From the NCBI RefSeq assembly GCF_004310335.1, contig NZ_SIRS01000003.1, positions 620,001-684,000 on the forward strand: 64,000 bases of DNA. Direction: 5' to 3'. Within the stretch, counting starts at the first letter, position 1, and each line of letters starts with the position of its first letter. The stretch comes from Hyunsoonleella pacifica. GTDB taxonomy: Bacteria > Bacteroidota > Bacteroidia > Flavobacteriales > Flavobacteriaceae. The notes below the pieces were generated by a model. The model did not search any database and was not told the DNA's origin. It saw only the letters and a program-made list of their open reading frames with translations. Of this stretch, positions 29,175 to 56,186 are shown one piece after another. Position numbers and translations under genes: made by a program.

Positions 29175-29502
29175 AATATACTTGTATACTTATTTCTAGA
29201 AGCTAGAAACTTTTGCAAAATTAGCTTAAAATAGTAGTAAAGTCTGGTTTTGCCTTTTGGTTTGTGGATAAGTTGCGTTAGGGATTGAGGTCACGCCATG
29301 GCGTGATTGAAGCTCCTCGACGTAGGAGGGAGCGACTGTCGAAAGCCTGACTGCCGGTAGGCATGACCCTTTAGGGCAACACCCAAAACACCTTCAAAAT
29401 TCCTTTCATATTACAGCTTAATCAAAAAAGATGTTTATTTTTACCCACTTGCATACTATATGTAAGAGTTTGTAGTTATTTATTACACCAAACCAAACGG
29501 TA
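29175..29502. other. 328-base gene-free gap
   Basis: I see no coding region, tRNA or canonical promoter here. The centre (29275-29384) is copy A of the structured repeat family. The left flank (29175-29274) is AT-rich and featureless. The right flank ends at the TTG start of sprE/porW, with no exact TAnnTTTG; TTTATTTTTACC near 29431 is the closest -7-like sequence. Confidence 0.7.
29275..29384 (+). repeat. Structured intergenic repeat, copy A
   Basis: It begins GCGTTAGGGATTG, contains GAAAGCC-TGAC at 29341-29351 and ends AACACCC, the frame shared with copies B-D. Three hairpins are visible: the 16-base perfect palindrome TCACGCCATGGCGTGA (29291-29306), CTCCT/AGGAG (about 29313-29328) and TGCC/GGCA (29352-29363). 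A fourth, CCC/GGG, lies just before the end. It sits 118 bases upstream of sprE/porW. It may be a mobile palindromic element or a structured RNA. Confidence 0.75.
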
Positions 29503-32064
29503 TTGAAAACACTCTTTAAACCTACGGTAATTTTAGTTATAAGCATTATTGCTATAACGAGCTGTTCTCGTAAAAAAAATAAGTTTTTAAGCAGAAATAT
29601 TCATGCGGTTACTGCAGAATTTAATGCATTGTACAATGGTTATAATGCTTTGGAGCAAGGAAGAACGTCTTTAAATGATAGCTACGAGGATGATTACTGG
29701 TCAATTTTGCCTATTGAGCGTATGCAGATTGATGAGGATGTTATTTTACCAGGACAGTCTAAAAACGACAATTTTACCCGAGCTGAGGAAAAAGCAGCTA
29801 AAGCCATACAAAAGCATAGTATGAATATTGATGGTAAAGAGTACAATCCACAAATGGATGAAGCTTATTTGCTTTTAGGGAAGGCAAGATATTTCGATCA
29901 GCGTTTTGTGCCAGCTCTTGAAGCCTTTAATTACATATTATACAAATACCCTGCGAGTGATAAAATTAATCAGGCTAAAGTATGGAGAGAAAAAACTAAT
30001 ATTAGGTTAGACAATGATGAGTTGGCTATTAAAAATTTAAAGCGCCTTTTAGAGCAGGAAGATTTGGAAGGTCAGGATTTGGCAGATGCGACATCTATGT
30101 TGGCTCAAGCTTACATTAATACAAAGTCCATAGATAGTGCCGTAACACAACTTAATATTGCAGCTAATGCTACAAAAAGTAATGATGAACGTGGACGTTA
30201 CAGATTTATACAAGGGCAACTCTACAATAACTTAGGTTATAAGGACAGTGCAAATATTGTTTTTGATGAGGTAATAGAATTGAATAGAAAGACACCTCGT
30301 ATTTACATGATTAGTGCGCATCTAGAAAAAATTAAAAACTTTGATTACGAGAATGGAGATAAATTAGCTCTAGCAGAATTATTGGAGGAGTTGGAAACCA
30401 ATAGAGAAAATCGCCCATTTTTAGATAAGATTTATCATGTTATTGGTTCACATCATTTAAAAAATGGTTCGGTAGAATTAGCGTCTCGCTACTTCAACAA
30501 ATCTTTAAGAACCAGTACTAGAGACCAAAAGTTGAAAGCTAGAAATTATGAAATTTTAGGAGATATGACTTTTGATAAGCGATTGTATGCTGATGCTGGT
30601 GCGTATTATGATAGTACTTTAGCAAACCTGAAGTTAAATTCTAAACCGTATCGTACTATAAAACGTAAACGTGATAACCTAGAAGATGTTATTTACTATG
30701 AAGGGATTGCGAAAGTTAATGATAGCATTTTACATTTAGTAAATCTACCCGACGCAGAAAGAATAGCCTATTTTGAAACTTATGTGACTGAATTAAAAGA
30801 GAAGGCCGAAGAAGAGGCAAAAAAGGAAGAAGCTTTACAACGTAATAATGGTTTGGCAACTGTTAATACACAAACAGGTATTAGTAATACTGGTAGTAGA
30901 CCCTTAGGAGTTCCAGGGCAAGGTAATGTGTTTTATTTTTATAACCCTACTACAGTTGCTTTTGGAAAAAATGAATTTATAAAGGTTTGGGGAGACAGAC
31001 CGTTAGAAGATAATTGGCGATGGTCTAATAAGGCATTATCTTCTGGAGGTAACTCAGGGACAATAACTGATGTCTCAGCAAGTGCTTCAGAGGAAGAACG
31101 TTTTGATCCGCAATTTTATATTTCTAAAATACCTTCAGAAGAAAAAGTTGTTGATAGCATTTCAAAAGAACGTAATTATGCTTACTATCAATTAGGATTG
31201 ATTTATAAAGAAAAGTTTAAAGAGTTTAATTTAGCTAAAGATAAATTTCAAGAGTTGTTAAATAGCAATCCAGAAGAACGTTTAATACTACCTTCAAAAT
31301 ATAATCTGTATAAGATTTATGAATTATTAGGAGAAAATGATGAAGCTACTATTGCTAAAAATGAGATTGTTTCTAATTACCCAGATAGTAGGTATGCGGC
31401 TATCTTAACGAATCCGGAATCGGTTGCATTAAAGGATGAAAATAGCCCAATAGTGCTTTATGAAAAACTATACGATGCGCATGTGGTACAAGATTATGAA
31501 TCAGTAATTGAAAAAAGTGAGGAATATATTAAAGCTTTTGATGGCGAGCCAATTGTACCAAAATTTGAATTATTGAAAGCTACAGCTTCTGGAAGATTAT
31601 TAGGTTTTACTGCTTATAAGAAAGCTATTAATTATATAGCTGTTACTTATGCTAATACACCAGAAGGACAACAAGCACAGCGAATGGCTAACGAAATACT
31701 ACCTAAGTTAAAGGGTAAAGAATTTACTAATGATAGTATTTCGGATAATTTTAAAGTGGTATTTAAATTTAACAGAACTAAAACAGATAGGATAGAAAGT
31801 TTTAAAGCTACTTTAGACGAGGTTCTGGAAAACGTAAGATACTACAAATTAAAGAGTTCGGTTGACGTTTACGATACAAATACTACCTTTGTAGTGGTAC
31901 ATGGCTTAAAAAATGGGCAGGTTGCTCGAACTTTTAACCAGATACTATTAGATAAAGATGTGAAGAAAATAAAAGAACCTTATTTTGCAGTATCATCTGC
32001 AAATTATCAAATACTCCAAATACATAAAAATTTGGAAACCTACTTAAACTTGAATAACCAATAA
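29503..32064 (+). CDS. sprE: Type IX secretion/gliding motility TPR lipoprotein SprE/PorW
   Basis: The 853-residue product has a lipoprotein signal ending I-A-I-T-S-C (Cys 21) and a long TPR body. The N-terminal segment (N-I-H-A-V-T-A-E-F-N-A-L-Y-N-G-Y-N-A) and the length match SprE of Flavobacterium johnsoniae/PorW of Porphyromonas gingivalis, needed for type IX secretion and gliding. Tetratricopeptide units are visible at about 120-380 and 550-640. A low-complexity T/N/G-rich segment near 445-470 separates the halves. After the lipid-modified Cys comes S-R-K-K-N-K, basic rather than acidic, which argues for a periplasm-facing anchor. The start is TTG. It is followed 12 bases on by the bactofilin gene. 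Confidence 0.85.
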   Translation: MKTLFKPTVILVISIIAITSCSRKKNKFLSRNIHAVTAEFNALYNGYNALEQGRTSLNDSYEDDYWSILPIERMQIDEDVILPGQSKNDNFTRAEEKAAKAIQKHSMNIDGKEYNPQMDEAYLLLGKARYFDQRFVPALEAFNYILYKYPASDKINQAKVWREKTNIRLDNDELAIKNLKRLLEQEDLEGQDLADATSMLAQAYINTKSIDSAVTQLNIAANATKSNDERGRYRFIQGQLYNNLGYKDSANIVFDEVIELNRKTPRIYMISAHLEKIKNFDYENGDKLALAELLEELETNRENRPFLDKIYHVIGSHHLKNGSVELASRYFNKSLRTSTRDQKLKARNYEILGDMTFDKRLYADAGAYYDSTLANLKLNSKPYRTIKRKRDNLEDVIYYEGIAKVNDSILHLVNLPDAERIAYFETYVTELKEKAEEEAKKEEALQRNNGLATVNTQTGISNTGSRPLGVPGQGNVFYFYNPTTVAFGKNEFIKVWGDRPLEDNWRWSNKALSSGGNSGTITDVSASASEEERFDPQFYISKIPSEEKVVDSISKERNYAYYQLGLIYKEKFKEFNLAKDKFQELLNSNPEERLILPSKYNLYKIYELLGENDEATIAKNEIVSNYPDSRYAAILTNPESVALKDENSPIVLYEKLYDAHVVQDYESVIEKSEEYIKAFDGEPIVPKFELLKATASGRLLGFTAYKKAINYIAVTYANTPEGQQAQRMANEILPKLKGKEFTNDSISDNFKVVFKFNRTKTDRIESFKATLDEVLENVRYYKLKSSVDVYDTNTTFVVVHGLKNGQVARTFNQILLDKDVKKIKEPYFAVSSANYQILQIHKNLETYLNLNNQ

Positions 32065-32076
32065 AACCAAGATGTT

Positions 32077-32499
32077 ATGTTTTCAGAAAACAAAAAGGAT
32101 AAACTAACCATGGGAAACCAATCAAGCCAAAATATTATAGCCCAAGGCACCAAAATTATTGGAGACTTTAATAGTGAAGGTGATTTTAGAATTGATGGTG
32201 CCATTGAAGGAAGTATTAAAACTTCTGGTAAACTAGTAGTTGGTAAAGATGGTATTATAAAAGGTACTATACAAGGTACTGATGCTTACTTTGAAGGAAA
32301 ATTTTCTGGAAAACTATCCTTGTCTGGGACGTTAACATTAAAATCATCAGCATTTATTGAAGGTGAAGTTGTAGTTGGAAAGTTAGCAGTAGAGCCAGGT
32401 GCTACGTTTAATGTGACATGTGCTATGAAAGGTACTGTAAAACCTATGACAAACGGTGAGCCAACAAGACAAAAATCAGAAACCGAGAAAACAGCTTAA
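32077..32499 (+). CDS. Bactofilin family cytoskeletal protein
   Basis: The 140-residue product is a polymer-forming bactofilin. A short disordered lead is followed by a right-handed beta-helix core (I-I-A-Q-G-T-K-I-I-G-D-F to G-A-T-F-N-V-T-C), with regular glycine-spaced strands such as D-F-R-I-D-G-A-I-E-G-S-I and G-I-I-K-G-T-I. The tail is short, hydrophilic and proline/threonine-rich. Bactofilins build filaments that position envelope machinery. ATG 32077 or 32110 may be the start; the latter removes 11 charged residues. The 3' end overlaps the next gene by 44 bases, so the two are probably coupled. Confidence 0.9.
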   Translation: MFSENKKDKLTMGNQSSQNIIAQGTKIIGDFNSEGDFRIDGAIEGSIKTSGKLVVGKDGIIKGTIQGTDAYFEGKFSGKLSLSGTLTLKSSAFIEGEVVVGKLAVEPGATFNVTCAMKGTVKPMTNGEPTRQKSETEKTA

Positions 32500-32698
32500 T
32501 CCTTACTTAAGATTTACGTCTACTGCATTTCAAATGGGTGCAACTATTTATTTAGGTAATGTATTAGGTAAATGGTTAGATGGTAAATATGCCACTACAT
32601 TTTGGGAATCAATAATTACACTTTTTTCAATTTTTGTTGCTATATATTTAGTTATTTCTCAAGTATTAAAACTTTCCAAAGACAATAAAGATGATTAA
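32456..32698 (+). CDS. AtpZ/AtpI-like small membrane protein
   Basis: The 80-residue product has a basic, hydrophilic N-terminus and two membrane helices (about 22-40 and 48-68) separated by G-K-W-L-D-G-K-Y, the pattern of AtpZ/AtpI-type accessory proteins that precede F-type ATPase genes and help c-ring assembly or magnesium uptake. The start is GTG at 32456, 44 bases inside the bactofilin gene; no ATG gives the conserved helices. It overlaps the following gene by 8 bases, and atpB is 471 bases downstream, which supports the assignment. Confidence 0.82.
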   Translation: MSQQDKNQKPRKQLNPYLRFTSTAFQMGATIYLGNVLGKWLDGKYATTFWESIITLFSIFVAIYLVISQVLKLSKDNKDD

Positions 32699-33095
32699 AT
32701 CTTTTTTAGTGTATTTACTTTCGTTTATACTATTGTTTCTGATGTCCTATTGCACACATTCCTATTGTATAGAGACCAATGTCATAGAATTTCGTTTTAA
32801 TCTGTTACAGCCCTATATGTTTTTTGCAATATTCTCCTTTGGGTTGTGTATTGTTTTTAAAGTGCTTTCATCTTTTAAAAAAATATCTTTTCAATTAGGC
32901 TTTATTTATCTGTTTACTCTTGCTATAAAAGTTGGGTTATTTGCCATAATATTTAATGAATCTATATTACAATTACCTAATCTTTCTAAAATTGAGAGTT
33001 TAAATTTGCTTATTCCACTATTCATTTTTTTAGTCTTAGAGCTCTATTTTGTAGCCAGACTTTTAGGGGTTGAAAGACCGAACTCAATTAGTTGA
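32691..33095 (+). CDS. DUF6168-like membrane protein upstream of atpB
   Basis: The 134-residue product has four membrane helices with short loops and ends in a hydrophilic tail. It occupies the place of AtpI in other ATP synthase operons; I associate it with DUF6168, a flavobacterial family, from the pattern F-R-F-N-L-L-Q-P-Y-M-F-F-A-I-F. No function is established; a role in assembling the F0 sector is an inference from context. It overlaps the AtpZ-like gene by 8 bases and is separated from atpB by a promoter. Confidence 0.7.
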   Translation: MIKSFLVYLLSFILLFLMSYCTHSYCIETNVIEFRFNLLQPYMFFAIFSFGLCIVFKVLSSFKKISFQLGFIYLFTLAIKVGLFAIIFNESILQLPNLSKIESLNLLIPLFIFLVLELYFVARLLGVERPNSIS

Positions 33096-33104
33096 AAAAA
33101 ATAA

Positions 33105-33133
33105 TTGTTATTTCATTTATTATCGTACTTTTG
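33105..33133 (+). promoter_or_regulatory. Promoter of the ATP synthase operon
   Basis: TTG at 33105-33107, an 18-base spacer and TACTTTTG at 33126-33133 match the Bacteroidota consensus TTG-N17-23-TAnnTTTG. The expected transcript start near 33140 lies about 30 bases before the chosen atpB ATG (33170). This is one of the best promoter matches in the window and implies that atpBEFHAG can be transcribed independently of the upstream bactofilin-AtpZ genes. Confidence 0.75.
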
Positions 33134-33169
33134 CACGGAATTTAAAAATGCATTTTTTTGATTTTTACA

Positions 33170-34297
33170 ATGAAGGCAGCCAAACAAAGTTTTAAATTTT
33201 TAGTATTACTTTTTACGTTATTCTTTGGAGCAGTAGTTTTTGCTCAGCATCACGAGAAAAAACACTCAAGTGAAGGTAGCGAAATAGACACAGAACAAGA
33301 GATTGATGAGTATATTATTCATCACACAAAAGATTCTCACGATTTTACATTATGGTCATATACAGATGATGCTAATCAACGCCATCATGTAGGTTTTCCA
33401 TTGCCGATAATTTTATGGACTAGTGAGGGCTTAGTAACGTTCATGTCCTCAGAATTTCATCATAATGACGATGGTCATGTTCTAGTTGAAAAAGGAGGGC
33501 AAAAATTTGCTAAAATTCATTCTAAAATATATGAATTAGAGGCAGGAGCTTCTGTAGTTAATTTTGATGAAACGCATCATGCTACTAATGCTCATAAAGT
33601 TGTAGATTTTTCAATTACTAAAAGTGTAGTAGGTGTTTTGCTGATAGGTTTGTTAATGTTTTGGTGGTTCTCTTCTTTGGCAAGACAATATAAAAAGAAA
33701 CAAATACCAACTGGATTTGGACGTATTCTAGAGCCACTTGTAATATATGTTAGAGATGAAATAGCAAAACCAAATATTGGAGATGCTAAATACCGACAGT
33801 TTACAGGATATTTGTTAACGGTGTTTTTCTTTATTTGGATAGCAAATCTAGCAGGGTTGATGTCTTTTGGATTTAATATCACTGGGCAGATAGCAATTAC
33901 AGCATGCTTAGCAATCTTTACACTAGTAATATACACAACAAAAGCAAACAAAGAATATTGGGGACATACATTATGGATGCCTGGTGTTCCTGTTTTCGTA
34001 AAACCTGTTTTAGCTATTATAGAGTTGGCAGGTCACTTTTTAATAAAACCTTTCTCTTTACTTGTACGTTTGTTCGCTAATATTAATGCTGGACATATTG
34101 TAGTAATGAGTTTAATTGCAATAATATATAAGTTTAAAGAAAGTATGGGATTAGCAGGTTCTATCCCATTAGGTTTAGTATTATCATTTTTTATCACATT
34201 AATTGAAGTATTGGTGGCGTTCTTACAAGCTTATATCTTTACTATGCTTTCTGCATTATTTATTGGTATGGCTGTTGCAGAACATGATCATCATTAA
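33170..34297 (+). CDS. atpB: ATP synthase F0 subunit a
   Basis: The 375-residue product forms the proton half-channels next to the c-ring. The essential arginine is in S-L-L-V-R-L-F-A-N (R300), and the last helices carry the usual polar residues. It has a signal peptide (1-26, ending V-V-F-A-Q) and a long periplasmic N-terminal extension of about 125 residues containing some 15 histidines, often as pairs, before the first core helix near residue 150; this makes it about 100 residues longer than Escherichia coli AtpB. An in-frame TTG at 33158 is possible, but the ATG at 33170 gives a clean signal peptide. Confidence 0.95.
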   Translation: MKAAKQSFKFLVLLFTLFFGAVVFAQHHEKKHSSEGSEIDTEQEIDEYIIHHTKDSHDFTLWSYTDDANQRHHVGFPLPIILWTSEGLVTFMSSEFHHNDDGHVLVEKGGQKFAKIHSKIYELEAGASVVNFDETHHATNAHKVVDFSITKSVVGVLLIGLLMFWWFSSLARQYKKKQIPTGFGRILEPLVIYVRDEIAKPNIGDAKYRQFTGYLLTVFFFIWIANLAGLMSFGFNITGQIAITACLAIFTLVIYTTKANKEYWGHTLWMPGVPVFVKPVLAIIELAGHFLIKPFSLLVRLFANINAGHIVVMSLIAIIYKFKESMGLAGSIPLGLVLSFFITLIEVLVAFLQAYIFTMLSALFIGMAVAEHDHH

Positions 34298-34330
34298 TAT
34301 AAAGAGTTTGTTTAATTTAAATTGATTGTT

Positions 34331-34525
34331 ATGACAATTCCAAATTTAGTAGGTGCTGGTTTAATTGTAATCGGAGCTGGTATTGGTTTAGGTAAAATCG
34401 GTGGAAGTGCAATGGAAGGTATTGCGCGTCAACCAGAAGCTACTGGTAAAATCCAAACAGCAATGATTATTATTGCTGCACTTTTAGAAGGTTTAGCATT
34501 TGGTGCTTTATTCTTAGGAAAATAA
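34331..34525 (+). CDS. atpE: ATP synthase F0 subunit c
   Basis: The 64-residue product is a two-helix hairpin. Helix 1 carries the glycine-zipper G-A-G-I-G-L-G-K-I-G-G, the polar loop is R-Q-P-E (33-36), and helix 2 holds the ion-binding glutamate E53 in L-L-E-G-L-A-F. The residues after E53 (G-L-A) lack the Ser/Thr of sodium-binding rings, so proton coupling is likely. An in-frame TTG at 34322 would add M-I-V; ATG 34331 gives the normal length. A strong hairpin (34545-34584) follows in the gap before atpF. Confidence 0.95.
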   Translation: MTIPNLVGAGLIVIGAGIGLGKIGGSAMEGIARQPEATGKIQTAMIIIAALLEGLAFGALFLGK

Positions 34526-34544
34526 GAAGCCAAATTAAAACTTA

Positions 34545-34584
34545 AAAACACGTTCCTGCAACGGTTGGTTGCAGGGCGTGTTTT
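34545..34584 (+). other. Strong RNA hairpin between atpE and atpF
   Basis: AAAACACG-TT-CCTGCAAC (34545-34562) pairs with GTTGCAGG-GCGTGTTTT (34568-34584): 8 bp below the loop, a small internal bulge, then 8 bp more. It is followed by only GAAATT, not a long T-run, so it should stop transcription weakly if at all. Lying directly after the c-subunit gene, it could protect atpE mRNA from 3' decay or act as a partial terminator and so help produce many c subunits. Confidence 0.7.
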
Positions 34585-34613
34585 GAAATTAAACAAGACA
34601 TAAATATAATAGA

Positions 34614-35114
34614 ATGGAAACATTATTAAACGACTTTTCACCTGGGTTATTTGTAGTTCAAACAATATTATTGTTAGGGCTTATCTTTTTAATGGTGAAA
34701 TTTGCTTGGAAACCTATTTTAAATTCTTTGAATGAAAGAGAAGAAGGTATTCAAAATGCTTTAGATGCTGCTGAAAATGCAAAAGCAGAGATGGAAAATC
34801 TTCAGGCAGATAATCAAAAGCTTTTAAAAGAAGCTAGAGCAGAACGTGAAGCTATGTTAAAAGAAGCTCGCGAAATGAAGAACAAGATGATTGAGGATGC
34901 TAAAATTGAAGCACAAGAAGAAGCAGGTAAATTAATTGCTCAAGCCCAAGCTAGTATTGAAACAGAAAAGAAAGCGGCTATTGCTGATTTAAAATCTCAA
35001 GTTGCTAACTTATCTATTGAAATTGCAGAAAAAGTTGTGAAAGACGAGCTTTCTAATAAGGATAAGCAAGAAAAGTTAGTAACATCTTTATTAGATGGTG
35101 CAACTTTAAACTAA
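34614..35114 (+). CDS. atpF: ATP synthase F0 subunit b
   Basis: The 166-residue product is the peripheral stalk. It has one N-terminal membrane helix (about 10-30), W-K-P-I-L at 32-36 as in other b subunits, then a long amphipathic coiled coil rich in Ala, Glu and Lys (40-145) with R-E-E-G-I near 43-47. The C-terminus contacts subunit delta. Length is standard. It begins 29 bases after the atpE-atpF hairpin and ends 7 bases before atpH. Confidence 0.95.
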   Translation: METLLNDFSPGLFVVQTILLLGLIFLMVKFAWKPILNSLNEREEGIQNALDAAENAKAEMENLQADNQKLLKEARAEREAMLKEAREMKNKMIEDAKIEAQEEAGKLIAQAQASIETEKKAAIADLKSQVANLSIEIAEKVVKDELSNKDKQEKLVTSLLDGATLN

Positions 35115-35121
35115 AAGTATT

Positions 35122-35658
35122 ATGGCAGGAACAAGAGCAGCAATACGTTACGCAAAAGCAGTTTTAAGTTTGGCCCTTTCTGAGAAAAAAGCAGATAAGG
35201 TTAATAACGATATGATTCTTATTGCTGATACAATTGCACAAAATAAAGATTTGGCAGATATGCTTGGTAATTCTGTTGTAAAATCAGAAGCCAAAAAAGG
35301 AGCATTGTTAGCTATTTTTCCAAAATTAAATACAATTAGTAACGGGTTGTTTGATGTTTTAATAGCTAATAAGCGAATAGATATATTAAACGAGGTTGCA
35401 CAACAATACACCATTTTGTTTGATGAGCAAAATGGAAAACAAATTGCAACAGTTACTACAGCTGTAGCGCTAACAAAAGACTTAGAGAAAAAAGTTTTAG
35501 CTAAAGTTAAAGCGTTAACAAGTAAAGAGGTACAGTTAGAAAGTATAGTAGATGAAAGCATTTTAGGGGGTTTCATCTTACGTGTTGGAGATAAGCAGTT
35601 TGATGCTAGTATCTCAAACAAATTAAATAAGTTAAAAAGAGAATTTACATTAAATTAA
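35122..35658 (+). CDS. atpH: ATP synthase F1 subunit delta
   Basis: The 178-residue product links the peripheral stalk to the top of F1. It starts A-G-T-R-A-A-I-R-Y-A-K-A-V, the usual R-Y-A-x-A-L-type N-terminus, and ends with the conserved I-L-G-G-F-I-L-R-V-G-D-K-Q-F-D-A-S-I block. Length is standard. A 57-base spacer to atpA contains a small GGATGT/ACATCC hairpin (35673-35687) and short degenerate TCTAA repeats, an unusual interruption in an otherwise compact operon. Confidence 0.94.
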   Translation: MAGTRAAIRYAKAVLSLALSEKKADKVNNDMILIADTIAQNKDLADMLGNSVVKSEAKKGALLAIFPKLNTISNGLFDVLIANKRIDILNEVAQQYTILFDEQNGKQIATVTTAVALTKDLEKKVLAKVKALTSKEVQLESIVDESILGGFILRVGDKQFDASISNKLNKLKREFTLN

Positions 35659-35715
35659 TAAATGGTTAGAGTGGATGTGTAACATCCGATGTCTAACGTC
35701 TAATATCTAAAAAAG

Positions 35716-37290: not shown

Positions 37291-37335
37291 TTAGATTTTA
37301 GTAGTTACTAACTACTAATAACTAAAGACTAGAGA

Positions 37336-39742: not shown

Positions 39743-39743
39743 T

Positions 39744-41329: not shown

Positions 41330-41464
41330 GCGTTAGGGATTGTAGTGGATAGCCCACAGCTTTTGCGCCCTAGTGCAAAAAGCGAGGACTTGTAACGAAA
41401 AGCCCGACCGAAGTGATCCTGCAAGGTTTTGAGAACCTTGTAGGTTTAAACGAAGGTAACGCCC
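41330..41464 (+). repeat. Structured intergenic repeat, copy B
   Basis: It begins GCGTTAGGGATTG and ends AACGCCC, with GAAAAGCCCGACC in the middle (41397-41409). The first variable hairpin is TTTTGC/GCAAAA (about 41361-41380), different in sequence from copies A, C and D but at the same position. The second is CTGCAAGGTT/AACCTTGTAG (41419-41443), 10 bp with one mismatch. The element ends 12 bases before the ATG of the TPR gene, so it would lie in that gene's leader if transcribed. Confidence 0.75.
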
Positions 41465-41476
41465 AAATAAATAGTA

Positions 41477-42829
41477 ATGAAACAATTAATCTACATACTT
41501 TTTTTCTTTGGAATATTGAATATTCCACAGGTAAACTATGCCCAAGTAGATTTTAATAAAACGCCTGATGACGATTTAGGGATTGTTGAAGACCAGTTTC
41601 AAGAGCTCTTTTTTGAAGCTTTAAAACAAAAGGGAGTTGAAAACTATGATAGAGCTGTAGATGCATTGCAAAAATGTATTGAAATTGATAAATCGCCTGC
41701 TATATTGTATTTTGAATTGGGTAAAAACTACATAAAACTTAAAAATTTTGGTGCTGCGGAAGATGCTTTGAAAACTGCGGTAGAAAAAGCTCCAGATAAT
41801 GAGTGGTATTTAGATGAGCTTTACGGTTATTATGTTAGCCAAAATGATTTAAAAAAGGCACTTAAAACCGTACAGCAATTGGTGCAATACCATCCAGATT
41901 ATAAACAGGATTTGGCAAACTTATATGTAAAGATGGAGAAGTATGACGCTGCTTTGGAAATTCTGGATGAACTAGATGCATCTTTTGGTATTTCTGTATC
42001 TAGAGATGTACTTCGCAATAGAATTTACAAAGCTACAGGTCGTGCTGAGGAACAGATAGAAAACTTACAATCTAGGGTAGATAAAAACCCAAAGAACGAA
42101 GCAAATTATTTGGCATTAATTTACCGCTATAGCGAACAGGGAGAGAAGCAAAAAGCTTTTGAAACAGCTCAGGGATTACTTAAAATACAACCGAATTCAC
42201 AGGTTGTACATTTGGCACTTTACAAGTTTTATTTAGATAAGAATAATACTGAAGAGGCCATTAATTCTATGAAAATTGTGGTACAAAGTAACGAGATAAA
42301 ACCTGATGCAAAGTTAAAAGTACTTTCAGATTTCGTTAATTTTGTTAAAGATAATCCGCAATATGAAGCTGATTTATTAGAAGCTACCGCGCTTCTTGAT
42401 GGCGCTACTGATGCTAAAACCTTAACAGATTTAGGATTGTATTACCTTAACAAAGGCGATAAGGAAAATGCATTGAAAAATTTTCAAGAAGCTTTAAAAT
42501 TGGATGATAACAATTTTAGTATTTTAAGAAATGTACTTATGCTTCATATTGATTTAAAACAGTTTGAAGTAGCTAAAACTAAGAGTGATGCTGCTATTAT
42601 AAAATACCCTGCACAACCCTTACCGTATTTAGTAAATGGTATCGCCTTAAACGCATTGCAAAAACCGAAGGAAGCTATTACTACTCTAGAATCTGGTTTA
42701 GATTGGATTGTAGACGACAATAAAATAGAAGCAGATTTTTATAGGGAGTTAGCAAAGGCATACAATTTGCTAAACAATACAGCAAAGGCAAAATCGTTTA
42801 TGGATAAGGCAAATGCACTTAAATCGTGA
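41477..42829 (+). CDS. Secreted tetratricopeptide repeat protein
   Basis: The 450-residue product has a signal peptide (about 1-22, ending N-Y-A-Q) and at least eight TPR-like helix pairs, for example Y-D-R-A-V-D-A-L-Q-K-C-I near 58-69, F-G-A-A-E-D-A-L-K-T-A-V near 93-104 and K-E-N-A-L-K-N-F-Q-E-A-L-K-L near 329-342. No enzymatic domain is present, so it is probably a periplasmic scaffold. It overlaps the DUF4292 gene by 4 bases and is followed by an M23 peptidase gene, which points to envelope assembly. The leader may include repeat copy B. Confidence 0.88.
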   Translation: MKQLIYILFFFGILNIPQVNYAQVDFNKTPDDDLGIVEDQFQELFFEALKQKGVENYDRAVDALQKCIEIDKSPAILYFELGKNYIKLKNFGAAEDALKTAVEKAPDNEWYLDELYGYYVSQNDLKKALKTVQQLVQYHPDYKQDLANLYVKMEKYDAALEILDELDASFGISVSRDVLRNRIYKATGRAEEQIENLQSRVDKNPKNEANYLALIYRYSEQGEKQKAFETAQGLLKIQPNSQVVHLALYKFYLDKNNTEEAINSMKIVVQSNEIKPDAKLKVLSDFVNFVKDNPQYEADLLEATALLDGATDAKTLTDLGLYYLNKGDKENALKNFQEALKLDDNNFSILRNVLMLHIDLKQFEVAKTKSDAAIIKYPAQPLPYLVNGIALNALQKPKEAITTLESGLDWIVDDNKIEADFYRELAKAYNLLNNTAKAKSFMDKANALKS

Positions 42830-44843: not shown

Positions 44844-44901
44844 CGCTACAAACCTACTGTCATGCTGAACTTGTTTCAGTATCTATCGAATACTATAATT
44901 T

Positions 44902-45022
44902 GGGCGTTACCCTCGATGTAACATCCGTCTACAATATTTACGCATTCGTCCTCGGGTCAGACTTTCACTACTCAATCCCTCCTGCGTCGGGGATTTCAAA
45001 CATGCCGTTCAATCCCTAACGC
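44902..45022 (-). repeat. Structured intergenic repeat, copy C
   Basis: Read on the minus strand it begins GCGTTAGGGATTGAACGG and ends AACGCCC. Its first 68 bases differ from copy D at only 5 positions. The first hairpin is AATCCC/GGGATT and the second region is longer and less regular. It lies in the convergent gap between the M23 and small lipoprotein genes, next to a TGTCA-type palindrome near 44860-44886. Confidence 0.75.
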
Positions 45023-48219: not shown

Positions 48220-48245
48220 TTGGCTTGATTATTGATCATAGTTTA

Positions 48246-48273
48246 TTGAAAATAAATAATTTATGTATATTTA
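48246..48273 (+). promoter_or_regulatory. Candidate promoter of the HicBA-like pair
   Basis: TTG at 48246-48248, a 17-base spacer and TATATTTA at 48266-48273 fit the Bacteroidota promoter except for A instead of G at the last -7 position. The expected start lies about 10 bases before the ATG at 48292. No clear operator palindrome is visible around it. Confidence 0.45.
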
Positions 48274-48291
48274 CAATCTTAATTTTCTTAT

Positions 48292-48675: not shown

Positions 48676-48678
48676 TCA

Positions 48679-49880: not shown

Positions 49881-49886
49881 AATAAC

Positions 49887-49904
49887 TACCTGCGAAAGCA
49901 GGTA
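49887..49904. repeat. Perfect palindromic hairpin in the trpS leader
   Basis: TACCTGC (49887-49893) and GCAGGTA (49898-49904) form a 7-bp stem with a 4-base loop (GAAA on the + strand, TTTC on the minus strand). It starts 6 bases upstream of the trpS ATG, so in trpS mRNA it would sit next to the ribosome entry site. The shape is typical of a short dispersed palindrome (CCTGC...GCAGG). Confidence 0.7.
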
Positions 49905-49941
49905 TCTTTTTTTATTAGAAATAATAAATTTTAACCGATGG

Positions 49942-49971
49942 CAAAGGTAATCCATTTCATAAAAACCTCAA
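49942..49971 (-). promoter_or_regulatory. trpS promoter
   Basis: On the minus strand TTG (49971-49969), a 19-base spacer and TACCTTTG (49949-49942) match the Bacteroidota promoter consensus. The expected transcript start near 49935 gives a leader of about 55 bases containing the 49887-49904 hairpin, and excludes the upstream ATG at 49955 as start. Confidence 0.72.
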
Positions 49972-49995
49972 TACAATTGCTTATTTTTGACTTTA

Positions 49996-50733
49996 ATGAT
50001 GTTTTTTAAATATATATTCTGGACGCTTTATCGTATTTGGTTTTACATTCTAGTAGCACTGCCTATTTTGATATTGTTTCCAATGTTATTGATTTCTATT
50101 TTAAAGGAATCATGGTATCCTTTCTTCTTTAAACTAGCGCGAGTGTGGGCGAAGTTTATTTTAATTGGTATGGGATTTAACTATACTATTAAGCGGGAAC
50201 AAACACTAGAAAAAGGTAAGAGCTATATGTTTATAGCTAACCATACATCTATGGTAGATATTATGTTGATGTTAACTGCGGTTAAAAATCCGTTTGTATT
50301 TGTAGGCAAGAAGGAACTAGCTAAAATTCCATTGTTTGGATTTTTCTATAAACGTACTTGTATTCTAGTAGATAGAAGTTCAGCAAAAAGTAGGCAGGCT
50401 GTATTTTTAAGAGCCCAAAGGCGTTTACAACAGGGTTTAAGTATTTGTATATTTCCAGAAGGCGGCGTGCCCGAGGAGCATATTATTTTAGATACATTTA
50501 AGGATGGCGCATTCAGATTAGCAATAAACCACCAAATCCCCATAGTACCATTAACTTTTGCCGATAATAAAAAGCGTTTCTCTTACACGTTTTTTAGTGG
50601 AGGTCCTGGAAAAATGAGAGCTAAAATTCACAAGTTTATTCCAACTACAGGTTTAACTACCGATGATACAAGACATTTAAATGAATCTTCAAGGGATATC
50701 ATTTTAAATCAATTACAAAGTTTTAATAAATAA
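49996..50733 (+). CDS. 1-acyl-sn-glycerol-3-phosphate acyltransferase (PlsC-like)
   Basis: The 245-residue product acylates lysophosphatidate or a related acceptor in phospholipid synthesis. It has a membrane N-terminus (about 5-35), the catalytic N-H-T-S-M-V-D block (an HX4D motif near 82-88), a G-K-K-E-L-A-K-I-P segment, and F-P-E-G-G near 154-158. ATG 49996 or 49999 both fit; a TTG at 49987 is also in frame but lies within the -7-like TATTTTTG. A terminator follows directly. Confidence 0.88.
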   Translation: MMFFKYIFWTLYRIWFYILVALPILILFPMLLISILKESWYPFFFKLARVWAKFILIGMGFNYTIKREQTLEKGKSYMFIANHTSMVDIMLMLTAVKNPFVFVGKKELAKIPLFGFFYKRTCILVDRSSAKSRQAVFLRAQRRLQQGLSICIFPEGGVPEEHIILDTFKDGAFRLAINHQIPIVPLTFADNKKRFSYTFFSGGPGKMRAKIHKFIPTTGLTTDDTRHLNESSRDIILNQLQSFNK

Positions 50734-50765
50734 AAAACTGCTCTTGGGGAAAGAGCAGTTTTTTT
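50734..50765 (+). terminator. Rho-independent terminator after plsC
   Basis: AACTGCTCTT (50736-50745) pairs with AAGAGCAGTT (50751-50760) around GGGGA, flanked by A-run and T-run. The stem begins directly after the plsC stop. The symmetric A/T flanks would let it work for transcripts from the opposite strand too, where the sigma/anti-sigma operon ends at 50815. Confidence 0.92.
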
Positions 50766-50814
50766 AGATACCAGTTCCGAGCTTAAAGGAAGCCGATATC
50801 ATCTAACCAAAAAC

Positions 50815-52416
50815 CTAAAATTTAATTCCGAATCCGGTGTAAACCCCAATAAAGAAAGGTTGAAAATCACCAGACGTATTTCTAAAAGTGTTAATTTGAT
50901 ATTTGAACATTGGTTCAAAATTTAAATTAATCTTTTCTGATATTTTATAATTTACACCTAAACCAAAGTTGGCACTATAACTGGTGTTGTTAATACTAGT
51001 GTCGTTTTCTTGTAATAGCGTGCGCTGTCCTTCTATTACAGAAGCCGATTCGTAATTGTTTAGAAACAAAGAGCTAAATCCTCCAATAACATTTAAACCT
51101 AAGCGCTTATTGGAGATGGTATATTGTAATTCCAAGGGTACCTCAATAAAACCAAACGACTGATTGATGCTAGTATTAGTAGCCTCAAAAGGTGTAATGT
51201 TGTTCGATTTAAATGTATTAGCACTCATTATAGCAACATTATCTCCCGCACTAATAGCTGATGTTCCTGCAGTATTGTTGGTGACAGTGCCACTTATTGT
51301 ACGTAATGTTTGGGTACTAGCACTAGCATTTACAGTACTAAAAACTACAACGTCATTAGTATTATAACCTAAGTTTACACGATTGATCCCAGAGCGTACG
51401 GTAAGCCGTTTATTTATAGCATAGCTAGCGTTGAGACCGTAGCTCATATTTACTTCGCCACTTTTAGAGTTTTCATTGAACTGGGCACCTATAGATGATC
51501 CTTTTCCTAAGCTACTAAAATATACGGGTGCTACATTTGGAGCTACACTCCATTTATTAAATGCGACTTCAGTCTTTTCTTCTTCAAGGAGCGATTTGTT
51601 TTGCTCAATAGCTTCTCCAATAGATTGCTTACCTTCCTTGGTGTTGTTTTCTGCAACTTCTTGCTTAGCTTTATTCTCTACAGGCACTGTAGTTTTATGC
51701 TCGGTATTTTCCTTATCTGAAGTAATTGTATTATTTTGTTTAGTAACTATAGTATTCTTTACAAGATTTGTTTTATGCTTATCTGATCTACTTTCTTGGG
51801 TTGATGAAGTTTCTTTTTCAGAATTATCTTTAAGATTTGCAATCTCAGTTTTAGTTATATGATCTTTGTAAGTTATAATTGCAGGGTTATCATCTTTTGA
51901 AGGTGCTTTAAAAGTTTTCTTATAAGTTTCTTCATTTGTATTAGTGTTAGCAATTGATGATGATTGTTCTTTAGGAATTATATTCTTGTTTACTTTCTTA
52001 GTTTGATTAAATGAAGAGTTAGTATTATTCCCTTTGGTACTTTTTAGAATATCATTTGTTTCAACCTCAGTTTTATCTTCTGCAATAACACTATTCTTTG
52101 CTTCACTATTGGTATCACTGCTATTTTGAAGGTTTTCATTAATAGTATTTTCTATATCTGTTTGCTCGGTATCAACTATTTGTGGTGTTATTTGTTCTAC
52201 TTCATCATTGTTAAATAGAGACACACCAATTGTAAGCATTACTGCTAAAAGTGCAGCTACACCAGCATAACGCCACCAAATAGGGATAACCCTTTGCTTT
52301 TTCTTCTTTTCGTTAAGCTTAGCTTCTATGTTGTTCCAAACAGTATCATCTGGCTGCACTTCAAAATCTTTAAAGTGTTCCTGATATAGTCTGTCTATAT
52401 GTTTTTTATCTCCCAT
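50815..52416 (-). CDS. Putative anti-sigma factor fused to an outer-membrane beta-barrel
   Basis: The 533-residue product begins with a soluble, charged, anti-sigma-like segment (D-D-T-V-W-N-N-I-E-A-K-L near 23-34), one membrane helix (48-68) and a 218-residue linker very rich in N, T, S, K and E (70-287). It ends in a 245-residue PorT-like barrel domain (288-533, last residue F). The start overlaps the ECF sigma stop by 1 base, supporting an anti-sigma role. If correct, one chain spans inner membrane, periplasm and outer membrane. The alternative is that the hydrophobic segment is only a membrane anchor of a barrel protein. Low-complexity linker is directly seen; function is inferred. Confidence 0.75.
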   Translation of the reverse strand: MGDKKHIDRLYQEHFKDFEVQPDDTVWNNIEAKLNEKKKKQRVIPIWWRYAGVAALLAVMLTIGVSLFNNDEVEQITPQIVDTEQTDIENTINENLQNSSDTNSEAKNSVIAEDKTEVETNDILKSTKGNNTNSSFNQTKKVNKNIIPKEQSSSIANTNTNEETYKKTFKAPSKDDNPAIITYKDHITKTEIANLKDNSEKETSSTQESRSDKHKTNLVKNTIVTKQNNTITSDKENTEHKTTVPVENKAKQEVAENNTKEGKQSIGEAIEQNKSLLEEEKTEVAFNKWSVAPNVAPVYFSSLGKGSSIGAQFNENSKSGEVNMSYGLNASYAINKRLTVRSGINRVNLGYNTNDVVVFSTVNASASTQTLRTISGTVTNNTAGTSAISAGDNVAIMSANTFKSNNITPFEATNTSINQSFGFIEVPLELQYTISNKRLGLNVIGGFSSLFLNNYESASVIEGQRTLLQENDTSINNTSYSANFGLGVNYKISEKINLNFEPMFKYQINTFRNTSGDFQPFFIGVYTGFGIKF

Positions 52417-52967
52417 TACAAGGATTGTAGGTTTTTCTTTTTGTTATGTTGTTCTATAGTTTGCTTCAAAATTTGCCTTGCTCTTGCTAGGTTAGATTTT
52501 GAAGTTCCTACAGTAATTTCTAGCATTTCTGCTATATTTTTATGAGAATACCCATCAAGTGCATAAAGGTTAAAAACCAATCTGTACCTGTCGGGTAAAT
52601 CTTGTATAATTTGCAGAAGATAATCAATGGAGATTTCATCCTCGTCAACTTCTACTTCTACATCTTCGGTTATGTTTTCATTTATAATATCAAAAACTTT
52701 TTCGTTACGATAGCGTTGCAATACAGTATTTACTGTAACCCGTTTTAGCCAACCTTCAAAAGAGCCTTTATGTTTATATTGTTCAATTTTATTAAAAATG
52801 GTTAAAAATGCGTCTTGTAAATTATCTTGTGCTTCTGCATAATTGCGCGAATACTTTAAGCATGTAGAAAATAACTTGCCCGAAAAGAGCTTATATAGTT
52901 CCCCTTGTGCTTTAGTATCATTGGCTTTACATTTTTCTATGAGTTGGTTTAAACTCAAATGACACAA
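52416..52967 (-). CDS. RNA polymerase ECF sigma factor (sigma-70 family)
   Basis: The 183-residue product has region 2 (A-Q-G-E-L-Y-K-L-F-S-G-K-L-F near 18-31; A-E-A-Q-D-N-L-Q-D-A-F-L-T-I-F near 43-57) and region 4 (L-P-D-R-Y-R-L-V-F-N-L near 126-136; the DNA-binding helix pair Y-S-H-K-N-I-A-E-M-L then T-S-K-S-N-L-A-R-A-R). The start is TTG at 52967, with TTG 52958 as a close alternative. Downstream is the anti-sigma/barrel gene (1-base overlap); upstream is a lipoprotein gene 19 bases away. Confidence 0.93.
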   Translation of the reverse strand: MCHLSLNQLIEKCKANDTKAQGELYKLFSGKLFSTCLKYSRNYAEAQDNLQDAFLTIFNKIEQYKHKGSFEGWLKRVTVNTVLQRYRNEKVFDIINENITEDVEVEVDEDEISIDYLLQIIQDLPDRYRLVFNLYALDGYSHKNIAEMLEITVGTSKSNLARARQILKQTIEQHNKKKNLQSL

Positions 52968-52986
52968 AAATTAATTTACACTTAGT

Positions 52987-53397
52987 TTAATTAGTTACTG
53001 GTACTTCTATCTCTAGAAATATATCCTCATTATTATCGTCTTTGCCCTGCCAAAATTTAAAAATATAAGAAACATTACTGGTAACTTGAAAATTAAAAGT
53101 GGCTGTAAGAGTTTCATCAACTAAATCAATACAATCATTACGCTCAAACACTGTATTTACTACTGCAACCGTTCTTTCATTATTATGCGGAGCATAATAA
53201 AACTTTCCAAAGATATGACAGTTTGAAGGTCTTTTATAGGTCACTCCTATAGTATGTACTTCTCCTAATGTAAATTCGTCTGGAATATCTACACTTTCAA
53301 TAGGTATGAAAACACTTTTAAATGACAAATTATCATCATTCTTGTTGCAAGAGAAGAATGAAATAAACACAAATATGAAAAATACAATTTTTTTCAT
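52987..53397 (-). CDS. Lipoprotein in the ECF sigma operon
   Basis: The 136-residue product has a signal peptide ending F-I-S-F-F-S-C (Cys 17) followed by N-K-N-D-D, a polar/acidic start close to the K-(D/E)2 type export tag for surface lipoproteins in the phylum. The mature part is short and beta-rich with two cysteines (S-N-C-H-I-F, N-D-C-I-D-L). No family is recognised. It is the first gene of a lipoprotein-sigma-anti-sigma run, so it could be the stimulus sensor or a regulated target. Confidence 0.75.
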   Translation of the reverse strand: MKKIVFFIFVFISFFSCNKNDDNLSFKSVFIPIESVDIPDEFTLGEVHTIGVTYKRPSNCHIFGKFYYAPHNNERTVAVVNTVFERNDCIDLVDETLTATFNFQVTSNVSYIFKFWQGKDDNNEDIFLEIEVPVTN

Positions 53398-53532
53398 AAT
53401 AAAAATTTGGGCTTTTTAATTTATATATAGATGCAACATCTCACATAAGGTTGCGTAAAAAAATAAATAAAGGCATTTTGATTCTTTATTAAAAGAAAAA
53501 ACTTATATATTTACATGTAAAATTCTTATAAA

Positions 53533-54603
53533 ATGAAAAAGTTTTTTGTATTGTTATATGTTTTCGGTTTATTATTTTCCTGTAGTGAAAAGGATGATTT
53601 TATTCCGGAAATGGAAAATTCATTGTCTGAAAAAAATATTTTGACTTTTACATCAATTGAGGATTTAAAAAACACTATATCTGAAATAGATATTTTAAAA
53701 AGGGAACAGGAACATAGGATTTATGATGTAAGTTATTCGAGTATACCAAATTCTTCTGTTACATCTAATATTAAAGAAATAGATTATTCAAAAATCTTAC
53801 CTGCTTTAGAGGGTTATCATAAGAAGAGTTTAAAAAATGTTTATGAATTAAGAGAAAAACTAGGTTTTACTAGTTTGCAAAGTATTGTAGAAGAAATCAA
53901 TTCCTTGAAGCTCCTCAACCCGCAAAAAGCGGATGAGTTATTTAACAACTTTAGTAAGTTTTTAGTTCAATCAAAATTTGAAGTGTCAAGTGTTTTCGGA
54001 GATAAACTTTCTAACATTTTAAATGAAGAAGCCAGAGTTATGGTAAATGATGAATTGCTAGACTTAAACTCTAACTCAACAAATGAATCTCAAGAATTAA
54101 TGCAAGGTTTAATTATTGAAGGTAATGTTCAACTGGAAGATAACAATGGAGGGCAAACATCCAATAAATTAATACAAAATGATTCTGGTATTTTGTTTCT
54201 AAATGACTTTATGGCTGTAATTTGGGAGGTTGGTAAAAAAAGGAATACCAGTAATATATTTAGTAGATATGATTATTTTTCAAGAATTTCCGGATTCATC
54301 AGAATTCCAGGGGGAGGTAAGTATGTCAGTTATCCAATATCATGGGAACTAGAACCTGGTTCTTACTGTGAGTATAATGGTATTACTAATCCTTTCAGGT
54401 TTGGATTTCCAGAAAAATGGACTAATGTTAATAGCATTACTAACAGAGGTTATAAATCAAGTCGTAATTTCTATTTAAACAAAGTATATATTACGAGAGG
54501 CATTTTTTCAATAGAAATTGATAATGAAAAATTCACAATACTAAGTGATCCTTTTCTCAGAAATTACGATAATTATGATCCAGATAATCCTATTTATGAT
54601 TAA
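53533..54603 (+). CDS. Hypothetical lipoprotein
   Basis: The 356-residue product has a lipoprotein signal (G-L-L-F-S-C, Cys 17) followed by S-E-K-D-D, a good match to a surface-export tag (K-D-D at +3 to +5). The first half is helical and charged; the second half is beta-rich with aromatic residues (S-G-F-I-R-I-P-G-G-G near 255-264, S-W-E-L-E-P-G-S-Y-C). I recognise no family and no enzyme motif. It is divergent from the sigma operon, 135 bases away, and ends at a bidirectional terminator shared with recA. It may be in the sigma regulon, but no promoter evidence exists. Confidence 0.7.
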   Translation: MKKFFVLLYVFGLLFSCSEKDDFIPEMENSLSEKNILTFTSIEDLKNTISEIDILKREQEHRIYDVSYSSIPNSSVTSNIKEIDYSKILPALEGYHKKSLKNVYELREKLGFTSLQSIVEEINSLKLLNPQKADELFNNFSKFLVQSKFEVSSVFGDKLSNILNEEARVMVNDELLDLNSNSTNESQELMQGLIIEGNVQLEDNNGGQTSNKLIQNDSGILFLNDFMAVIWEVGKKRNTSNIFSRYDYFSRISGFIRIPGGGKYVSYPISWELEPGSYCEYNGITNPFRFGFPEKWTNVNSITNRGYKSSRNFYLNKVYITRGIFSIEIDNEKFTILSDPFLRNYDNYDPDNPIYD

Positions 54604-54608
54604 ACTAA

Positions 54609-54633
54609 AAATCCCGTCAATGCGGGATTTTTT
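54609..54633. terminator. Bidirectional rho-independent terminator between a lipoprotein gene and recA
   Basis: AAATCCCG (54609-54616) pairs with CGGGATTT (54623-54630) around TCAATG, with A-run on the left and T-run on the right. It lies between the convergent lipoprotein gene (stop 54603) and recA (minus strand, stop at 54651) and can serve both. Confidence 0.88.
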
Positions 54634-54650
54634 AATTATAATAAGGAATG

Positions 54651-55652
54651 TTATTCGCCTTTGATAACTTCTTTAATTTTTTCTTCTAGTTCTTCAAATA
54701 ACTCTGGGTTATCTTTTATAATTGCTTTTACAGCGTCTCTACCTTGTCCCAGTTTGGTTTCACCATAGCTAAACCACGAACCACTTTTCTTTATAATGTT
54801 GTGTTCTACAGCTACATCTAATATTTCTCCAACTTTCGATACCCCTTCTCCGTACATAATATCAAATTCACACATCCTAAATGGTGGTGCAACTTTATTT
54901 TTTACAACCTTAACACGGGTTTTATTTCCTAAAACTTCACCATTACTATCTTTAATTTGCGTAGATCTACGAATATCTATTCGTACTGAAGCATAGAATT
55001 TTAGTGCATTACCACCTGTTGTTGTTTCTGGATTACCGAACATTACCCCAATTTTTTCGCGCAATTGGTTAATAAAGATTACAGTACAATTTGTTTTGCT
55101 AATAGAAGCGGTTAGTTTTCTTAAAGCTTGAGACATTAAACGTGCATGTAAGCCCATTTTAGAGTCCCCCATTTCTCCTTCTATTTCACTTTTGGGAGTT
55201 AATGCTGCTACAGAATCTACTACAACAATATCGATAGCTCCAGAACGGATTAAGTTATCGGCAATTTCTAGAGCTTGCTCTCCATTATCTGGTTGAGAAA
55301 TGATGAGGTTATCTATATCTACACCTAATTTTTCGGCATAAAACCTATCAAAAGCATGTTCTGCATCTATAAAAGCTGCTATTCCTCCTGCTTTTTGTGC
55401 TTCGGCTATAGCATGCAATGTTAAAGTAGTTTTACCTGAAGATTCAGGTCCGTAAATTTCAATGACACGGCCACGAGGATAACCTCCCACGCCTAAGGCA
55501 ATATCTAACCCTAAAGACCCTGATGGGATGGCATCTACATCTACCACTGCGGCATCACTCATTTTCATTACGGTGCCTTTACCGTAAGCTTTATCTAGCT
55601 TATCTAACGTTAATTTTAATGCTTTTAATTTTGCTTCTTTTTCGCTGCTCAT
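54651..55652 (-). CDS. recA: Recombinase A
   Basis: The 333-residue product forms the nucleoprotein filament for homologous recombination and SOS induction. Walker A is G-P-E-S-S-G-K-T at 68-75, Walker B V-V-V-D-S-V-A near 141-147, and L2 has G-N-P-E-T-T-T-G-G near 203-211. An in-frame ATG at 55679 would add 9 residues (M-N-N-F-T-S-K-K-I); the family N-terminus M-S-S-E-K-E-A-K begins at 55652, so I chose that. No SOS box-like palindrome is obvious upstream. Confidence 0.97.
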
Positions 55653-55995
55653 TATCTTCTTTGATGTAAAATTATTCATGCTAAAATACTATATCTTTCT
55701 AGATGTTACAATAATAGTTTTCAACACAAATACAGGAAATTTGATAGCTGTATTTTTTAGCTAAAAAAATTTTTTTTTAATCGAGACGCAACCTTTTTAT
55801 TTTTTCTGCATCTAATGTTAAAGTGGGTAAAATTTTGCCGTGAAAAAGAAAATTTATAATTCCAAATCCCATTTATATAAAGCATTAGGCGTTTCAATCA
55901 TTGTATATCAGATTATAGAATTGTGTTAAGCCCATTGCAGCTAACTCTTATTAATTTTATTTATGAAAAAGAAAAATTTAATGATGAGTTACTCG

Positions 55996-56032
55996 AAAAA
56001 AGCACTTTGTTCCTAATAAAAGTGCTTTTTTT
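55996..56032 (+). terminator. Strong terminator without a recognised upstream gene
   Basis: AAAAAAGCACTTT (55996-56008) pairs over 13 bp with AAAGTGCTTTTTT (56019-56031), followed by more T. It is as good as any terminator in the window, yet no + strand protein gene ends nearby (the upstream gene, recA, is on the minus strand). This implies a + strand transcript starting in 55700-55950, probably a non-coding RNA or an attenuated leader. Confidence 0.8.
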
Positions 56033-56095
56033 ATGCCTTTATTTCTCCAAATGTTTTGATAGTATGAATTTGAGAATGACTTTGGCGGATAAGTT

Positions 56096-56186
56096 GCGTT
56101 AGGGATTGAACGGTATGTTTGAAATCCCCGACATAGGAGGGATTGAGTAGTGAAAGCCCGACCGCGCCTAAAGCGTGGTAACGCCC
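56096..56186 (+). repeat. Structured intergenic repeat, copy D
   Basis: It begins GCGTTAGGGATTGAACGG and ends AACGCCC. Hairpin 1 is AATCCC/GGGATT (about 56123-56143); the second is CGC/GCG (about 56163-56175). The first 68 bases differ at 5 positions from copy C. GGATAAGTT immediately upstream is shared with copy A. It lies 88 bases before the trhO start. Confidence 0.78.

Follow-up and report, generated by a model that had tools for sequence, protein, structure and literature searches.

A structured, non-coding DNA repeat is dispersed between the genes of Hyunsoonleella pacifica (Flavobacteriaceae). The main new result of this work is that its copies keep their sites from one sister species to another, whilst the left arm is swapped as a whole. 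The element has a defined anatomy and a high copy number, occupies fixed intergenic sites over species divergence, and has had whole left arms replaced with the surrounding frame kept above chance. The starting point was a window of 64,000 nucleotides (positions 620,001 to 684,000 of contig NZ_SIRS01000003.1, assembly GCF_004310335.1), in which an earlier note had described a four-copy family of intergenic elements with shared ends. All four copies (A to D) are real, with coordinates and ends as described, but their number was understated: at least 108 matches to a covariance model of the element, R1, were found in the genome at E ≤ 0.1 among the best 150 of 685 candidates scored.

In the full element a frame holds a left arm, of which there are about five types, and a right hairpin that varies. 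The structure was set by hand from 31 copies (alignment A1), and R1 was built on the same 31. The structure comprises an outer stem P0 (GCGTTA with TAACGC), a core stem P1 (GGG/CCC, an A.G mismatch, TT/AA or TA/TA, and a G.A mismatch), a stem P2 adjoining the arm, and the right hairpin P4. Five left-arm types are common, namely I (AACGGCATGTTTGA...GAGTAGTG), II (AGGCATTTGTTGAAGC...GCGACTGCCG), III (CAGTGGAAAGCCCACAG...GAGGACTTGTAACGG), IV (CAGCGGCATCCTTTT...AAAAGATATAGCGG) and V (TAGCTTTTGG...CCAAAACT), and there is a rare type VI. In the final typing both halves of each arm were scored against prototypes, and the two halves were of the same type in 212 of 222 copies (98/102 in H. pacifica, 65/70 and 49/50 in its congeners G116 and G158), so that arms change as units.

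Exchange of left arms at orthologous sites

We compared 37 orthologous pairs of copies between H. pacifica and G116 and 36 between H. pacifica and G158, with mean flank identities of 80.3% and 88.8%, respectively; two of an original 39 G116 pairs (L058/L193 and L030/L274) were left out from the start, their G116 copies having been paired twice. With clean typing, which omits 9/37 G116 and 3/36 G158 pairs as ambiguous or mixed, the arm differs in 15/28 pairs for G116 and 5/33 for G158, and thus more often with greater flank divergence. The difference persists where both flanks are matched (9/20 and 4/28). When all pairs are taken, the 5′ half of the arm is equal in 14/37 (G116) and 29/36 (G158), and the 3′ half in 15/37 and 31/36. 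Equal arms are commoner than after shuffling (13/28 versus 6.0 expected for G116, and 28/33 versus 7.5 for G158), as would be expected if exchange were gradual.

The frame behaves differently from the arm. Across the 20 swapped pairs, in which the H. pacifica copies L034 and L045 are counted twice, once per species, frame bases 4–8 agree in 12 where 7.0 would be expected (p = 0.004), and agreement is 8/13 against 5.7 (p = 0.04) for swapped pairs with both flanks matched. One pair that was kept, L016/L274, lies at a rearrangement, and without it the agreement is 12/19 against 6.4. Considered position by position, under an earlier typing, position 7 and the outer stem show excess agreement, whilst positions 8 and 12 alone show none. 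Individual pairs make the same point. L057/L268 have arm IV in one species and arm I in the other, yet both retain GCGTGA/CACGC and their right hairpins are almost identical; L217/L404 retain GCGCAA/TTGCGC with arms II and I; and L034/L420 have the right hairpin and downstream flank in common with arms III and I. Further rare frame variants are common to other swapped pairs among those listed, namely GCGCTA (L225/L250) and AAGG/CCTG (L211/L197 and L219/L186). Retention of the frame above chance, together with replacement of the whole arm, argues for exchange in place.

The four sites in the window extend this picture across the genus. They were read by eye and by R1 scan, with the H. pacifica genome included in the counts, and the region of copies A to C was matched in 12/12 genus genomes. 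Site A is occupied in 5/12 (II-like arms in H. pacifica and G158, V in G157 and G153, I in G150), with remnants discerned by eye in G116 and G151. Site B is occupied in 7/12, carrying arms III, IV, a truncated V, III, I, I and V; in the other five genomes the same two neighbours enclose different DNA that resembles a small gene, as judged by eye from the letters only. Site C changes least of the four, being occupied in 4/12, with type I in H. pacifica, G157 and G154 and another arm in G151. At site D, six of the eight genomes read at the adjacent rhodanese gene have an element (arms I, III, III, II, IV and III), G158 has a remnant and G156 has none. Five of these six elements have GCGCTA/TAGCGC as outer stem, the H. 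pacifica copy having GCGTTA/TAACGC. Among 80 named loci, some with short upstream sequence, an R1 element lies just upstream of the rhodanese gene in four: L070 (III), L075 (I), L083 (III) and L145 (IV). At site D the GCGCTA/TAGCGC stem thus accompanies four arm types across five congeners and three Algibacter loci, though it is found neither in H. pacifica itself nor in Arenibacter (L145). Several arm types are represented among the species at each of sites A, B and D.

These comparisons also bear on the age of the family. Copies C and D differ, by eye, at 5 of 68 bases, as had been pointed out, and this had been taken to indicate recent spread. That interpretation is not supported, since sites A to D are each occupied in several congeners; the likeness of C and D comes from their common arm type, I, which is found in other genera too.

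At the element-free site B loci (L325, L326, L328, L329 and L327), the intervening DNA looks by eye like a gene for about 100 amino acids or, in G156, like a LysE-like gene. One G116 element, L274, combines the upstream flank of L030 with the downstream flank of L016, which lie on different contigs in H. pacifica, and so marks a rearrangement junction at an element.

Base pairing and variation of the element

The pairing scheme is supported by compensatory changes. In A1, 88.5% of cells are paired, compared with 80.7% in letter shuffles and 28.9–47.2% in slid controls, the latter contrast being partly favourable by construction because the structure was drawn from the same sequences. Double changes occur at 12 of 19 pairs (shuffled mean 6.1), and in the outer stem P0, where 98.4% of cells are paired, at three of six. 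Two larger alignments fitted to the model gave 87.2% paired cells (99 H. pacifica rows) and 89.3% (73 further rows, 3 from H. pacifica and 70 from G116). The two core mismatches are near-invariant, A10.G72 being present in 171/172 rows and G13.A69 in 164/172. At P0 and P1, G.T outnumbers A.C by 40 to 19 (p = 0.009, with cells counted as independent), the split being 34 to 14 in H. pacifica rows and 6 to 5 in the others. Covariation beyond both shuffled and slid controls supports the structure under constraint that the earlier note had proposed. Its description of hairpins whose arms differ yet stay paired was correct as to the arms; what varies, however, is the choice between distinct arm types (II-like in A, III in B, I in C and D) and not the bases of one hairpin position by position.

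Types I to V recur in 30 copies taken from 15 genomes of other genera of the family, two from each, although by eye type V is seen in only 1/30 and not every genus has every type. Arm type is not associated with the class of right hairpin (mutual information 0.182, shuffled mean 0.222, for 83 H. pacifica copies under the earlier typing), and right-hairpin class is weakly tied to site (11/27, 8.5 expected, p = 0.07). We also looked for homogenisation of arms within genomes and found a mere trace of it, in type I.

Other palindromes occur in or near the element. The right hairpins of G116 often have GAGCTTGTCGAAG-type inserts (L256, L264 and L279, for example): the class accounts for 16 of 70 copies there, with 10 unclassified, and by the same rule for none of 102 in H. 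pacifica, with 19 unclassified. In L068/L439, L065/L444, L025/L425 and L051/L411 (H. pacifica/G158), only one of the two species has a palindrome of 16–20 nt around CTGCCGGCAG, which the other lacks at the corresponding point of the element, mostly at AAA|GCC or AAC|GC. By pattern, 9/36 H. pacifica/G158 pairs differ for it, a count that includes at least one pair (L234/L442) in which a diverged palindrome is, by eye, common to both. This palindrome has the look of an independent, small mobile element.

Abundance and genomic setting

Matches to R1 at E ≤ 1e-3 number 72 for G116 and 60 for G158. With the limit at E ≤ 1e-5, a match is present in 113/149 genomes of the family and in 62/149 genomes (43/101 genera) of a class sample that includes a few of the family. 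Copies are mostly about 73–210 nt long and are scattered over both strands, not in arrays. Long flanks were available for 85 H. pacifica copies, and 80 of these are free of any overlap of more than 50 nt with an open reading frame of at least 90 amino acids, as compared with 961/1100 random windows that do overlap. The strands of the neighbouring genes relative to the copy are ++ in 26 cases, -- in 26, +- in 16 and -+ in 10, with one neighbour undetermined in two. With copy D as the sole query, phage sequences gave no match and plasmids a single weak one (32/116 bases, on a Chryseobacterium plasmid).

As in a miniature inverted-repeat transposable element, terminal inverted repeats are present, formed by the outer 6 bp GCGTTA/TAACGC, although this is short for such an element. 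No target-site duplication is obvious in flank profiles, and where sites B and C are unoccupied they hold other DNA, so that no clean empty site was seen.

Copies in the window

Copy D, the only window copy among the 31 model-building sequences, lies at 56096–56189 (+) and scores 81.3 bits with R1. It has a type I left arm and the right hairpin CCGCGCCTAAAGCGTGG, and its outer stem is formed by GCGTTA (56096–56101, +) and TAACGC (56179–56184, +), with the conserved CC directly 3′ of the latter. It stands between recA upstream (54651–55679, -; Pfam RecA, E 2.7e-140) and a UPF0176/rhodanese gene downstream (56274–57347, +), which we take to be trhO. Among named records, this rhodanese gene is most similar to those of Hyunsoonleella ulvae (97%) and of Algibacter and Tamlana (91%). 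Between copy D and the rhodanese gene TACTTTTG reads as promoter-like. Copy C (44899–45022, -; 63.7 bits) also has a type I left arm, with a right hairpin of the CCGAG...ATCGAGG class. Copy B (41330–41467, +; 65.6 bits) has a type III left arm with a long tip and a right hairpin that a CTGCAAGG...CCTTGTAGG palindrome makes larger; 9 nt separate the end of the copy from the start codon of the next gene, which encodes a TPR protein (41477–42829, +). Copy A (29275–29387, +; 29.2 bits) has a type II-like left arm with an extra hairpin CACGCCATGGCGTG, and a short palindrome separates its core from the right hairpin CCCTTTAGGG. The next-best R1 match in the window reaches 11.3 bits (E 0.43).

The string GCGTTAGGGATTG is in excess over shuffled sequence in the window, with four exact occurrences and, at up to two mismatches, five against 0.64 expected, a number reached in 1/100 shuffles. 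It occurs 47 times in the whole genome of 4.13 Mb and its reverse never; one of the 47 (L039) appears by eye to be a chance match within a coding gene. Single-sequence folding is clear for copy B (z -3.97 as RNA and -2.83 as DNA) and partial for copy D (-1.57 and -2.55).

The CTGCAAGG...CCTTGTAGG palindrome, at 41418–41444 in the window, is seen also in L006 and L034; it is nested in right hairpins but also stands free between genes, and is present in the site C flank of G158 and G150.

Relation to known elements

The comparison with Flavo-1 that the earlier note had suggested showed the element family to be related to this RNA motif (Rfam RF01705), which is listed for Bacteroidetes (Weinberg et al., 2010; PMC2864571) and is already known from several papers (PMC2864571, PMC9723704, PMC9029176). 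The core stem of Flavo-1 (GAUUG...AAAGC, with small internal loops and a terminal hairpin) is shared, and this stem and the type IV arm are the same as in our family. In the H. pacifica genome 14 matches exceed the Flavo-1 cut-off of 42 bits, of which by eye 13 read as type IV and one as V. None of the window copies reaches the cut-off: copy B scores 31.5 bits, and A, C and D give no match at E ≤ 10. For 15 other loci, the five that pass are of type IV or V, whereas loci with I, II or III and one with a long IV fail. The difference lies in the Flavo-1 model, whose 76 positions include neither the right hairpin nor the GCGTTA/TAACGC outer stem, and which fails to detect most copies whose arm is of another type. 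In the accessible part of the original description, neither the anatomy of frame and arm nor arm exchange is described for Flavo-1 (PMC2864571). Because the hairpin inside is often exchanged whilst the site and much of the frame stay, the Flavo-1 'RNA' looks like one of several interchangeable arms.

Repetitive extragenic palindromic (REP) sequences and REPINs, with their RAYT transposases, resemble the element in forming many short intergenic hairpin copies, and the H. pacifica genome does have one RAYT; a REP is defined as a palindrome of 20–40 nt with a GTAG tag (PMC3733652). Our element differs in being about 70–210 nt long with a three-way junction and ends GCGTTA and AACGCCC, in having no GTAG tag, in showing no link with RAYT genes, and in the exchange of arms at fixed sites. 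The same source describes CGTC repeats, also in Bacteroidetes, as dispersed hairpin repeats without a dedicated transposase (PMC3733652); the likeness extends to both properties, and it is the description of these repeats as short palindromes with a CGTC end that sets them apart. In the open-licence literature searched, neither the larger element nor the exchange of arms was found described, and the GCGTTAGGGATTG string was likewise without match there. The double-hairpin elements of mitochondrial genomes are also variable paired-hairpin repeats between genes, but their organisms and sequences are other and kinship is not suggested.

Discussion

The reading that we favour, and consider probable on the comparisons above, is that the family, Flavo-1 included, is a dispersed, non-coding structured DNA repeat in which whole left arms are replaced at fixed sites by a process resembling gene conversion. 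The likeliest route would be that an arm is copied from another element of the same genome during gene-conversion-like repair, which might start with breakage or single-strand processing at the hairpins and might use the flanking core blocks as short homology. Several observations weigh against this scheme. No donor copy was identified, and the arm-adjacent blocks common to all copies are only about 6–13 nt, which is short for RecA-type conversion; exchange may for that reason be guided by structure and not by long homology, as in the bolder scheme below. Under a cruder typing, within-type arm likeness is barely higher within a genome (0.869 and 0.870 for type I) than between genomes (0.855), and is equal for type II, so that strong homogenisation by conversion is not visible. 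The single-sequence folding of copies A and C is weak (RNA z -0.93 and -0.90), hence our reliance on comparison instead, where the construction of the slid-control contrast has to be borne in mind. Frame bases differ as well in 8 of the 20 swapped pairs, and loss and re-insertion at the same sites, instead of exchange, is possible. A bolder scheme, conceivable though doubtful, is a cassette system: left arms I to VI would themselves be very small mobile hairpins for which the frame serves as a dock, recognition and cutting would take place at the core that the A.G and G.A mismatches enclose, and a conserved host or element-specific nuclease would swap arms at junctions within the 6–13 nt, keeping several old types side by side across the family and perhaps the class.

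The frame differences just mentioned are what one would expect if whole elements had inserted independently at the same hot spots in every species and the older copies had been lost. The constant place and orientation at sites A to D, and the gain or loss of sites among congeners, would fit this too. We nevertheless hold it to be unlikely, as several swapped pairs have rare frame variants in common (GCGTGA/CACGC, GCGCAA/TTGCGC, GCGCTA and AAGG/CCTG) and the GCGCTA/TAGCGC stem of site D persists under four arm types within the limits given above. It is rather unlikely, but a little easier to defend, that the copies act as RNA, as Flavo-1-type structured transcripts (small RNAs or segments of mRNAs) with a protein or ligand as binding partner, the arm types being functional variants. 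Strong covariation and the near-invariant A.G and G.A mismatches are consistent with this, copy B is enclosed by a gene pair on the same strand in all seven genomes that have it, and the excess of G.T over A.C at the outer and core pairs suggests a structure read from one strand. The same bias is also expected of single-stranded DNA, however, and the model-fitted alignments may add to it. Moreover, the copies have no preferred strand relative to their neighbours, copy D is upstream of the promoter-like motif of the neighbouring gene, and Flavo-1 matches in Flavobacterium psychrophilum are sense or antisense, many of them outside transcribed regions (PMC9723704).

The suggestion of the earlier note that this was either a mobile palindromic element or a structured RNA has thus stood as regards dispersal and structural constraint, with the RNA reading retained as a rival, whereas mobility of the REP/RAYT type has found no backing. 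Under the latter, a Y1 (HUH) transposase would move copies or arms as single-stranded hairpins; the hairpin anatomy with mismatches is suitable, and the single RAYT gene of the genome (L048:1222–1779, -; C12:690318) scores 93.1 bits with NF047646 against a cut-off of 80. However, no R1 element was present in the flanks of 32 Y1_Tnp sources examined (the H. pacifica RAYT locus twice, and 30 loci elsewhere, one per genome, of 59 genomes with a match). Copy number is not associated with Y1_Tnp, which among the matches listed is found in 17/37 genomes with at least 15 copies and 42/112 others (Fisher p = 0.44, hand count), leaving 20 high-copy genomes without a Y1_Tnp match. Together with the lack of a GTAG tag at the element ends, this makes the proposal very unlikely. 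Integron-like attC recombination sites, which the GTTAGG/AAC-like ends and folded arms might bring to mind, are scarcely credible, although no search was aimed at an integrase: attC sites have the order RYYYAAC...GTTRRRY, whereas here the 5′ end has GTT and the 3′ end AAC, and the copies are scattered on both strands instead of forming arrays. Different palindromes, GCTACCGCTAGC-like, lie upstream of the RAYT gene at L048, with no R1 match nearby.

Since 2010 Flavo-1 has been a widespread candidate RNA of unknown function. If, as we favour, it represents a single arm, open to exchange, within a larger DNA repeat, efforts to find an RNA function have been directed at a fragment, and the absence of a consistent transcribed strand for Flavo-1 would be explained. 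For each pair of species, dozens of fixed sites offer a natural record of exchanged arms, which would make short-homology exchange in bacterial chromosomes directly measurable.

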